Part shown: positions 21,169 through 24,976 of the stretch, piece by piece
How positions within the stretch are numbered: the stretch's first letter is position 1
How the letters are laid out: each line of letters starts with the position of its first letter
Source: Gemmatimonadota bacterium
GTDB lineage: Bacteria; JBHIER01; G020348925
Direction of reading: 5' to 3'
DNA length: 28,014 nucleotides
Assembly (NCBI GenBank): GCA_020348925.1
Contig: CP070758.1
Span: forward strand, 707,904-735,917
The notes under the pieces: model-generated
The model's database searches: none
The model's input: the letters and a program-made list of their open reading frames with translations, nothing else
Told to the model about the DNA's origin: nothing
Made by a program: the position numbers and the translations under genes

Positions 21169-21256
21169 TTACAATCTGAATTTCATCTCTGAACTGAATC
21201 GTCATGGCCATTTTTGATTGGTGTGTACTTTTCCTATTTCAAAGGAGGTGAGACGT

Positions 21257-22609
21257 ATGAAGTCACGATGCGGTTATAGCGTCCTCCTCTTGACACTCGT
21301 CTCAATATCTGCTTCGTCGGGACTGGAATGGAAAGTTGCGGTGGTAGATGGTGGTGGTGCGGTGATCAATGCGGGTACTTCTGTTGCGATCGCATCTGGT
21401 GACTACCCTCACATGAGTTATCTTTCATATTTTTCACCGGATGACTCTGTGGGTCTGTTTTATGTCTATTGGGATGGTGATCAATGGCACAAACAGAACA
21501 TATTCCAGCTTTGGATCTATTTTGAAACCCAGACATCGCTTTCTCTTGATAAAGAGGACAATCCGCACATTGCTCATGGCTGGCATGGTGGTACGGGAGC
21601 ACTCATGATGTATTCTTTCTGGGATGGTGCAGACTGGCAACACATGCATATCCCGTATCTCGGGGAAGCCGTACACAATGACATTACTGTCGATGATTTC
21701 GGGTGTTCGCATATAGCACACATATGGATCAGCGACGTGCCGTGTCCCATCAGTCCGATTTATTCCGCCTTCGGCTGCCCCCAAAAATGTGGAAGCGATG
21801 TGGATACAGTTGATTACATGTGGTGGGGCAATGGACATGTCTCTCTTGCCTTGAGTTCAACCAGTTCGCCATGTCTGTGCTATAACTTGAACAATCGGAC
21901 TGATCCTGGTCTGAAATATGCTTTCTGTGTTGAAAATTATATTGGTGAAAAATGGAATATTGAAAAAGTTGATACCGTGCCGGAGGCTCCTCATACTTCT
22001 GGAACAGCGATATCGTTGAATTTAGATGTTTCTGATCATCCCCACGTTTCTTATTACGACGACCTTCATCATGATCTCAAGTGGGCGAGAAAAATTGGTG
22101 GAAACTGGGAGATTGGTGCAGTTGACAGTTTCGCAGATGTCGGTTCATGCAATTCTCTGGTACTTGACGACTACGGTTTTGAGCACATCTCTTACTACGA
22201 TGCCACTCATAAAGACCTGAAATGCGCCCATTGGAATGGAAGGAGCTGGGAGATTGAAAGGGTCGATACTCTGGGACAGGTCGGTGACGTCAATTCCATA
22301 GCCATCGATGATGATGGCTGCCTTCACATCAGTTATTACGACGCCATGAACAAATTCTTAAAATACGCCAAATCGACCTCAACTCATATATGCTCAGGTG
22401 TTAAAGGTGACGTTGATGGAAACAGTACGATCGATGTAATAGATGTTGTCCAGACAGTTCGTCATATCCTCGGTATTGAGATTCTCGAATTCTGCAGCCG
22501 GGTGAGGGCTGACTGCAATGCAGACGGCCAGATTGATATAACGGACGTTCTCGGCATTGTGAACGTCATATTAAATGTGAGCACGTGTCAGCCTACGAAG
22601 GGAAATTGA
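21257..22609 (+). CDS. secreted repeat protein with C-terminal type I dockerin
   Basis: A 450-residue secreted protein. The ATG follows AAAGGAGGTGAG by the usual distance, and residues 1-20 are a signal peptide ending SASSG. The middle is built of repeats about 45-50 residues long, each with a core like HISYYDATHKDLK followed by W-x-IE-x-VD and a Val-Gly-x-x-Asn-Ser segment. Three are clear between about 255 and 375, with looser ones before, which suggests a beta-propeller-like fold. Residues 381-445 are a dockerin: two calcium loops, D-x-D-x-N-x6-D (GDVDGNSTIDVIDVV) and D-x-N-x-D-x6-D (ADCNADGQIDITDVL), each leading into a helix. Dockerins dock to cohesins; no cohesin is visible in this window. 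The repeat unit does not name a ligand. The protein might be anchored to, or assembled on, the cell surface. Confidence 0.85.
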   Translation: MKSRCGYSVLLLTLVSISASSGLEWKVAVVDGGGAVINAGTSVAIASGDYPHMSYLSYFSPDDSVGLFYVYWDGDQWHKQNIFQLWIYFETQTSLSLDKEDNPHIAHGWHGGTGALMMYSFWDGADWQHMHIPYLGEAVHNDITVDDFGCSHIAHIWISDVPCPISPIYSAFGCPQKCGSDVDTVDYMWWGNGHVSLALSSTSSPCLCYNLNNRTDPGLKYAFCVENYIGEKWNIEKVDTVPEAPHTSGTAISLNLDVSDHPHVSYYDDLHHDLKWARKIGGNWEIGAVDSFADVGSCNSLVLDDYGFEHISYYDATHKDLKCAHWNGRSWEIERVDTLGQVGDVNSIAIDDDGCLHISYYDAMNKFLKYAKSTSTHICSGVKGDVDGNSTIDVIDVVQTVRHILGIEILEFCSRVRADCNADGQIDITDVLGIVNVILNVSTCQPTKGN

Positions 22610-22611
22610 AA

Positions 22612-22670
22612 TGTCACACCTATCACAGACGAAAGTCTGGGCCACAATGTGACACCTTTGGAATGTGACA
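22612..22670. repeat. nested inverted repeat after the dockerin gene
   Basis: TGTCACA (22612-22618) is the inverse of TGTGACA (22648-22654), and that word occurs again at 22664-22670. Inside the pair is a hairpin, CAGAC GAAA GTCTG (22626-22639), closed by a GAAA tetraloop. It begins 3 bases after the dockerin stop and covers the first possible start of the next gene (GTG at 22649). It could be a terminator without a T-run, an mRNA structure affecting the next gene, or a remnant mobile-element end. I cannot tell which. Confidence 0.4.
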
Positions 22671-24976
22671 ACCATGCACAGCGGTTTTACGAATTCAAGA
22701 CGATCTATCATCTCAAAAGCGTAATAGAGAAAATGGACTTCGGCGGTTCCCCCACAATACACCTGCTTATAAAAGCGAGAGAAGGGATCAGAACATCCCC
22801 TGCGAAATTAGGGGTTTTTCCCTCTTCCTTCAATCCTCTTACAGTATCCCACGTCGAGCTCATCGAGAGGGCCATCTCCGATTTCGCCATGGATGAGGTG
22901 CTCCTTGTGCTGGACAAGAAAACGCTGGATAAGGAAGTCTTCGGAGCGACACTGGAGGATCGACTCTTGATGCTCTTCAGTTTTTGTCAGGACAAACCTT
23001 ACATCTCCCTCGGGTTGTCCAATCGCGGCCTCTTTGTGGATAAAGTGACAGCCCTCAGAGAACTTTATCCACCCAAGACGGACATACACTTCATCGTCGG
23101 CTACGATACCATCATCCGGGTGCTGGATCCAAAATATTATGATGACAGAGAAGCGTCTCTCGAAAAGCTCTTCAGCGAGTGTTCTTTCCTGGCCGCCAAT
23201 CGTGGAGGGGAAAGCGTTGAAGATATTTCTGATTTATTCGAGAAAGACGAAAACAGAAAATACGCCGATAGAGTGAAAACATTTGTCATCTCTGATTTTC
23301 TCGCCTCGGTTTCTTCGACACAGATACGAGACTTGGTCACCAAGGGAAAAAGTATCACCGACTTCGTGCCAATTGAGATCGAGGAATTCATCTCCGAGAC
23401 CGGACTCTATGGTCCTGATATTTCAGTGGGGAGTGAACGAATCAACATATATAATATTCGATGCCAGGCTATTGAACACCTCTGGGCACTCAATCCTATA
23501 GAGCCTCCCCAGACTGACTTGAAAAAGATCATCACGGCGGCCAGGGGAGATACACCTTTGGGAAAAGAAGTCCGACGCGTTCTTTTATTATCTCCAAGGC
23601 AGATTCCGCCAAGACCTGCTCCACGTATCCCATCTCAACCCACGGGTAATTTCGATCTCGTCACACCGCTTTTCCCTCTTCAAAAAGCCCAGCAGGAAGC
23701 GCGACGCTGTTTACAATGTCAGAATCCACCCTGCGAGCGCCATTGCCTCCCGGGCCTTCCAATTCTTGAGCTTCTCAAATTGATAGCTCGCGGTGCGTTT
23801 GAGGGCGCTTATGTAAGAATGAGAGAAGCTGAACCTCTGTGCGGGATGACAGAGTATCTCTGTCAGACGAAGGAGAACTATTGCGAGCGTCATTGCCTCT
23901 CAAGACAGCTTTTTGGAACAGGCAATGAAATCGCCATTCAAACCGTTTTTCGTTCCCTGTGGGAGTACGGACACAGGGAATGTGAAGATACGAACGATTT
24001 GTCTTTGAAATACAAAATAAATTTAGGAACGAGAAATAAGAAGGTTGCCATCGTAGGATCAGGACCGGCAGGTCTGAAAGCAGCTATGGATCTGGCCAAA
24101 CATGGCTACAACGTTACTATCTTTGAGAGGAAGGAAAAAATCGGGGGCGTTCCTCGCTTCGAGACGCCCATATTTCGATTCCCGGCCGAAGAGGTCTTCA
24201 ATCACATCGAGAAGGATATTCGAGCACTATCTATTCACATAGAGGCAGGTGTCACTATCGGGCAAAACGCGACTATCGAGAAATTGAAGCAACAGGGCTT
24301 CACCGCCATATTTGTGGCTACAGGACTTACGCTGCCGAAAAGGCTCGATATCCCCGGAGAAGATCTCAAAGGTGTTTCAACCTCGATCGATATTTTCAAC
24401 GAGTTTCACAGGAATGGCTTGAATGATCTCATGAAGAGGTTTAAAGATAAAAAGTGTTACGTCATCGACAGCGGAAACACGGCCATGGATACCTCTCGGT
24501 TGCTCAGACGGCTCGGTGCCGAGGTGACCAGTATCTTTTGGGAAGACGCACCGAGAGCTTACCCAAAAGAGATCGCTGCGGCAGAAAAAGAGGGCATATC
24601 CTTTCTATGTACTTCGCTTCCTGTCGGACTGGTTGGAGATAATCAGGGAGTACTGACTCATATAAAGAGTGCCGAAACAACCTTTGATGAAAAAACAGAA
24701 CGCTGGAAACCAATTCCAGGGACAGACAGGGATCTCCCGACGGACTTTTGTATCTATGCCATAGGCGCTCATCCTGACGTCAATCTTGAGAACCTCAACA
24801 TAACTAAAGAGGGTCATATTCAAGTCGATCCAGTGACATTGCAGACATCGATTCCTGCTCTCTATGCGGGGGGTGACGTGGTCGAGCGGGGTAATATTTC
24901 AACCGCAATCCGTGATGGGAGAAGAGCTGCTGAAAGTATTTACGATTTTTGTAATGCTGAAGCCGGAAAGTTGTAA
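22649..24976 (+). CDS. fusion: nicotinate-nucleotide-adenylyltransferase-like domain plus GltD-like iron-sulfur flavoprotein
   Basis: One uninterrupted frame joins two enzyme types (775 residues from GTG 22649; ATG 22733 gives 747). Residues about 53-250 are a nucleotidyltransferase of NadD/NMNAT type, with the start motif GVFPSSFNPLTVSH (55-68) and SSTQIR (222-227), the ISSTxxR box. The usual H-x-G-H reads T-V-S-H. From about 335 the protein resembles the small subunit of glutamate synthase and its NAD(P)H oxidoreductase relatives: four cysteines at 354, 357, 362, 366, four more at 398, 405, 412, 416, an FAD motif GSGPAG (470-475) and a final AGGDVVERGN FAD segment. The second dinucleotide motif (603-614) reads VIDSGNTAMD. 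The start is uncertain; homologous-looking sequence begins near residue 23, favouring a non-ATG start. The partner enzyme and electron acceptor are not in the window. Confidence 0.88.
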   Translation: MTPLECDNHAQRFYEFKTIYHLKSVIEKMDFGGSPTIHLLIKAREGIRTSPAKLGVFPSSFNPLTVSHVELIERAISDFAMDEVLLVLDKKTLDKEVFGATLEDRLLMLFSFCQDKPYISLGLSNRGLFVDKVTALRELYPPKTDIHFIVGYDTIIRVLDPKYYDDREASLEKLFSECSFLAANRGGESVEDISDLFEKDENRKYADRVKTFVISDFLASVSSTQIRDLVTKGKSITDFVPIEIEEFISETGLYGPDISVGSERINIYNIRCQAIEHLWALNPIEPPQTDLKKIITAARGDTPLGKEVRRVLLLSPRQIPPRPAPRIPSQPTGNFDLVTPLFPLQKAQQEARRCLQCQNPPCERHCLPGLPILELLKLIARGAFEGAYVRMREAEPLCGMTEYLCQTKENYCERHCLSRQLFGTGNEIAIQTVFRSLWEYGHRECEDTNDLSLKYKINLGTRNKKVAIVGSGPAGLKAAMDLAKHGYNVTIFERKEKIGGVPRFETPIFRFPAEEVFNHIEKDIRALSIHIEAGVTIGQNATIEKLKQQGFTAIFVATGLTLPKRLDIPGEDLKGVSTSIDIFNEFHRNGLNDLMKRFKDKKCYVIDSGNTAMDTSRLLRRLGAEVTSIFWEDAPRAYPKEIAAAEKEGISFLCTSLPVGLVGDNQGVLTHIKSAETTFDEKTERWKPIPGTDRDLPTDFCIYAIGAHPDVNLENLNITKEGHIQVDPVTLQTSIPALYAGGDVVERGNISTAIRDGRRAAESIYDFCNAEAGKL

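Follow-up and report, generated by a model that had tools for sequence, protein, structure and literature searches.

A single open frame joins an NMNAT-like domain to an iron–sulfur flavoprotein

The window, which is the whole stretch of 28,014 nucleotides analysed here, contains a fusion gene of 775 codons on the + strand (22649–24976), and all features of the gene given below lie on that strand. The frame is open across its entire length and measures 788 aa from stop to stop (22610–24976). A GTG was chosen as the start codon, and the alignment with full-length fused homologs begins at residue 1; the exact start position is uncertain, and no clear ribosome-binding site was seen.

The N-terminal part of the protein is an NMNAT-like nucleotidyltransferase domain (residues ~50–256; 22796–23416), which was matched by Pfam CTP_transf_like, TIGR00482 and NadD structures in the PDB. 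It contains the start motif GVFPSSFNPLTVSH with T/HxxH (residues 55–68; 22811–22852), which is kept in both fused and standalone relatives, and the SSTQIR motif (residues 222–227; 23312–23329), for which relatives keep (S/T)STxxR. The interdomain linker that follows (residues ~257–325; 23417–23623) has no stop, no N and no in-frame ATG, and its alignment with the fused protein of another genome, G086, revealed the common patches ALN, DLKK, DTPLG and PPRP. The C-terminal part, an NfnB/GltD-like FAD/[4Fe-4S] module (residues ~325–770), is composed of a Fer4_20 domain (23648–23962; Pfam and alignments), in which C354, C357, C362, C366, C405, C412 and C416 are conserved and Phe434 sits at the position of the NfnB Glu ligand, and a Pyr_redox_2 flavoprotein domain (24038–24910) with the FAD motif GSGPAG at residues 470–475, which is matched by NfnB and GltD. 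Alignment with 26 NfnB/GltD-type sequences revealed an altered NAD(P) site (24467–24547), where D607-S-G-N-T-A-M-D614 stands for GGGNxAMD and W631-E-D633 for YRR.

In Pfam, CTP_transf_like (57–227), Fer4_20 (334–438) and Pyr_redox_2 (464–754) each scored above the gathering score. NadD models of NCBIfam matched the N-terminal part and NfnB/GltD models the C-terminal part, all of them below the curated cut-offs among the matches listed. A PDB search matched NfnB (4ylf), Nfn and GltD to residues ~327–771 and NadD to ~53–254. The motifs noted in the first-pass annotation were all found where it had placed them: T/HxxH within G55–H68, SSTQIR at S222–R227 and GxGxxG at G470–G475. It had also counted eight Fe–S-type cysteines; the eight are present, including C398, but C398 varies in the fused relatives and the other seven are conserved.

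The fused protein is encoded in genomes of three phyla

Two further genomes were found to carry the fusion. G086, from another phylum, encodes a 797-aa fused protein with 45% identity over residues 9–767, and G389, from a third phylum, encodes one of 757 aa with 36% identity; both keep the two domains and the junction. The idea of a single-chain fusion, first proposed from the open frame in the window, is thus borne out by one stop-free frame together with the full-length fused proteins of G086 and G389.

It was proposed that the joined form might instead arise from a frameshift or misassembly that joins two separate genes, and the assembly of the window's genome is indeed a scaffold with at least one gap of 100 N elsewhere. 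However, the frame has neither a stop nor an N across the junction, and the full-length protein recurs in two independent genomes. Such a join is exceedingly improbable and is effectively ruled out, because G086 and G389, from two other phyla, have the same architecture.

The three carriers were found among ~470 genomes. In a set of 386 genomes spread over the domain, in which the window's phylum is represented by one genome, the fused form was detected in two, the window's genome and G086; in the phylum of G039 it was detected in one of 84 genomes, G389. When 385 genomes were searched with the fused alignment, G086 scored 1378 bits, the next best match scored 320 bits and covered the C-terminal part only, and no further carrier was found. 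The fusion was absent from the four genomes of the phylum of G097, viral contigs and plasmids gave no match, and a contig scan gave one short unrelated match. A 598-aa open frame in G348 was rejected as a candidate, as this is the stop-to-stop length only and the gene encodes a 208-aa NadD-like protein. The fusion is rare, within the scope of ~470 genomes.

As an observation on the assembly itself, a run of 100 N interrupts a 16S rRNA gene in the window's genome (L022:1804-1903; G000:C1 ~1988465-1988564), and the sequence after this run has no match to 16S rRNA. The "single contig" genome is therefore a scaffold with gaps.

In the tree, the N-domains of the window protein and G086 pair, and the G389 N-domain groups with standalone members from the phylum of G389. 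The fused N-domains are not one clade in the free tree, yet a single clade was not rejected (p-AU 0.113). These trees fit one fusion event followed by transfer or loss; two separate fusion events may instead have occurred.

The N-terminal domain is a separate NMNAT-like subfamily

The N-terminal domain had been described as NMNAT/NadD-like. It has the NMNAT-type motifs, T/HxxH (T65–H68) and SSTxIR (S222–R227), in all three fused proteins, but it is not NadD itself. Against TIGR00482 (NadD, nicotinate-nucleotide adenylyltransferase) it scored 68 bits (E 1.4e-17), below the curated cut-off of 112.45 bits, and the tree split its subfamily from true NadD with 100/100 support. The PPHK of NadD is replaced by (N/T)xDK in the subfamily (TLDK in the window protein), and the GxDxxxxxxxW of NadD, the Trp of which stacks on the pyridine ring, is replaced by GYDTxxRxxDPKYY (GYDTIIRVLDPKYY in the window protein). 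By profile, tree and alignment, the domain is a separate NMNAT-like subfamily distinct from NadD.

Subfamily members also occur as standalone proteins of ~250 aa, in 74 of the 84 genomes of G039's phylum and a few others. The subfamily is present in 53 of the 55 good-quality genomes of that phylum, and two that were checked there also have real NadD. At all 13 loci of family f40 examined, the standalone NMNAT-like gene has a gene for a MazG nucleotide pyrophosphohydrolase immediately upstream (e.g., L019:4081-5588).

Because the catalytic T/HxxH and SSTxIR are kept, adenylyl transfer by the N-domain is likely; because PPHK and the NadD Trp position are absent, the acceptor may differ from NMN or NaMN. 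It had been suggested to look for a separate NadD, and the window's genome has its own (192.7 bits). The same was seen in G086, G389 and G039: each of the four genomes has a true NadD above the cut-off and a subfamily member below it. This finding, together with the base pocket that differs from that of NadD, would fit a sensor-like role, in which the N-domain would gate the flavoprotein by binding ATP or a pyridine nucleotide, with no net synthesis, since synthesis by this domain would be redundant with real NadD encoded elsewhere in the genome. The catalytic motifs are kept, though, which a pure sensor could lose, and we consider such gating unlikely.

The C-terminal module has lost the NADP-phosphate motif

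In NfnB, the two clusters are bound by Cys39, 42, 47 and 100, and by Cys51, 90, 96 and Glu117; Tyr310-Arg311-Arg312 (YRR) holds the NADP phosphate (PMC7596348), and Arg187 contacts the flavin N5 (PMC6405883). The fused proteins keep the seven cluster cysteines as well as Fer4_20 and Pyr_redox_2, and all three keep the FAD GxGxxG and R510, which aligns to Arg187. Where NfnB has Glu117, the fourth ligand of its proximal cluster, the three proteins carry Phe, Leu and Phe. YRR, kept in 24 of the 26 comparison sequences, is WED, WRA and WEK, and the second Rossmann motif GGGN is DSGN, DSGN and EGGN; its first Gly, which is kept in 26/26 comparison sequences, is thus Asp, Asp and Glu. In the tree, the three fused C-modules form their own clade (100/100), apart from ordinary NfnB/GltD and longer relatives. 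The earlier description of a complete GltD-like oxidoreductase agrees with the domains, the seven cysteines and the FAD motif; it is too strong, however, because GltD/NfnB-defining sites are changed, YRR and the Glu ligand being lost in a module that lies outside the NfnB/GltD clade.

In DsrL enzymes, absence of YRR is accompanied by a preference for NAD(H) (PMC7596348). We infer from the loss of YRR that the C-module would likewise use NAD(H) rather than NADP(H). Alternatively, with Asp, Asp or Glu replacing the first Gly of the second Rossmann motif, the module may no longer bind a dinucleotide at all, NAD(H) included.

A role as a glutamate synthase subunit was rejected, as no GltB adjoins the fusion and GltB matches across the genome are partial and weak. 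The window's genome encodes six further GltD-type modules (G000:C1:583098-584432 and five other places) in proteins of ~570 to 1490 aa, and one of these, a protein of 799 aa, is an NfnA–NfnB type fusion by its length and match.

Gene neighbourhoods

The window neighbours of the fusion gene encode S46 and S41 peptidases, thymidylate kinase, alanine racemase and a dockerin protein; the last, encoded directly upstream (21218–22609), looks secreted and carries a BNR-type repeat and a type I dockerin domain. None of the window's neighbour genes recurs beside the fusion in the other two carriers, neither NfnA nor GltB lies beside it in the window, L061 or L062, and no conserved neighbour at the three fusion loci names an electron partner.

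In G390, nfnA, nfnB and then directly a standalone NMNAT-like gene lie on the same strand (L079:7359-10652; G390:C9), an unfused version of the pairing. This linkage is suggestive only, because it is one case in ~30 loci. In G086, LarE (TIGR00268, 352.7 bits) is encoded downstream of the fused gene (L062:7187-8002; G086:C295), and LarB was found above the cut-off in 3/3 carriers. LarB uses NaAD. A link of the fusion to LarB/LarE and an NaAD-derived cofactor is a lead only, because LarB was also found in 6 of 14 control genomes.

A possible bifunctional protein

We tentatively favor, with a probability of roughly 0.38, a bifunctional protein in which dinucleotide synthesis and an NAD(H)-type electron-transfer module are joined for supply or regulation. 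The N-domain would form a dinucleotide by moving AMP from ATP onto a pyridine mononucleotide, with NMN or NaMN as the likeliest acceptor; the C-module, with FAD and two clusters, would pass electrons between NAD(H), not NADP(H), and a one-electron partner; and the joining would couple dinucleotide supply to the redox module via local loading or regulation. Consistent with this proposal, full-length fused homologs exist in two other phyla, the adenylyltransferase and FAD motifs and the flavin-N5 Arg are kept in all three proteins, the replacement of YRR has a precedent in NAD(H)-preferring DsrL (PMC7596348), and the standalone gene of G390 directly follows nfnA and nfnB. Several observations argue against it: PPHK and the NadD Trp position are absent from the N-domain, every carrier already has real NadD, the second Rossmann motif has lost its first Gly in all three proteins, and no conserved neighbour indicates the electron partner, with the G390 linkage seen in one of ~30 loci.

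The main rivals of this bifunctional reading are the nucleotide-gated flavoprotein considered above and an enzyme that makes and then modifies its product. In the latter, the dinucleotide built by the N-domain would be the substrate that the C-domain oxidizes or reduces, and the protein would help to make or repair some cofactor distinct from ordinary NAD(P)(H). In line with such an enzyme, each of the three fused proteins has both of its nucleotide sites re-shaped, and their C-modules form a clade of their own; every carrier also has real NadD, and the fusion is therefore unneeded for ordinary NAD synthesis. The presence of LarB in all three carriers and of LarE downstream of the G086 fusion also points in this direction, but LarB occurs in controls, the LarE neighbour was seen once, and no candidate product is known. 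We regard this possibility as unlikely; if correct, the protein would belong to an undescribed bifunctional class that builds and then oxidizes or reduces a pyridine dinucleotide on one chain, with both nucleotide sites adapted to a molecule other than ordinary NADP(H), possibly yielding a new or repaired cofactor.

The two domains might also work independently, tethered with no functional coupling. Alignment-free structure prediction was too poor (mean pLDDT 38.5 and 35.5) to yield domain contacts, and the N-domain stands alone in many genomes. The joined form is nevertheless kept across three phyla at 36–45% identity, and the nearer homolog, that of G086, shares linker residues, so that we consider mere tethering quite unlikely.

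Comparison with known systems

The first-pass annotation knew of no described enzyme that joins NAD making to an NAD(P)H-using flavoprotein, and likewise no published description of an NMNAT-like/Fe–S flavoprotein fusion was found in the open-access literature. The fusion is apparently undescribed; both of its domain types are known, but each has been altered. Functional links that are otherwise hidden often come to light through domain fusions, and here an NAD-synthesis-type domain is tied to an iron–sulfur flavoprotein. The fusion also draws attention to a distinct NMNAT-like subfamily that is widespread in one phylum.

By sequence profile the N-domain has the nucleotidyltransferase fold of NadD, and it shares the T/HxxH and SSTxIR motifs, but it differs in its separate clade (100/100), a score below the cut-off, replaced PPHK and GxDxxxxxxxW, and an N-terminal extension. 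Yeast Pof1 is a low-activity third NMNAT besides Nma1 and Nma2, with a special role and T/HxxH and SxxxxR motifs (PMC13191266). By this description and its motifs it is similar to the N-domain in being an NMNAT additional to the main enzymes (PMC13191266), although Pof1 is not joined to a flavoprotein. PRK07152 (NCBIfam; profile of 361 positions) also has a NadD-type domain with a C-terminal extension, but this extension is no flavoprotein and the window protein matches only the NadD part.

The C-module shares Fer4_20, Pyr_redox_2, the seven cluster cysteines, the FAD motif and the flavin-N5 Arg with NfnB/GltD, which are NADPH-binding FAD/[4Fe-4S] subunits, whereas it lacks the Glu ligand, the first NAD(P) Gly and YRR, lies outside their clade and has no NfnA or GltB beside it. 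DsrL-1 is likewise of the GltD/NfnB type without YRR and prefers NAD(H) (PMC7596348). DsrL, which works together with DsrAB, ends in a ferredoxin domain, whereas the extra domain of the fusion is N-terminal and NMNAT-like.
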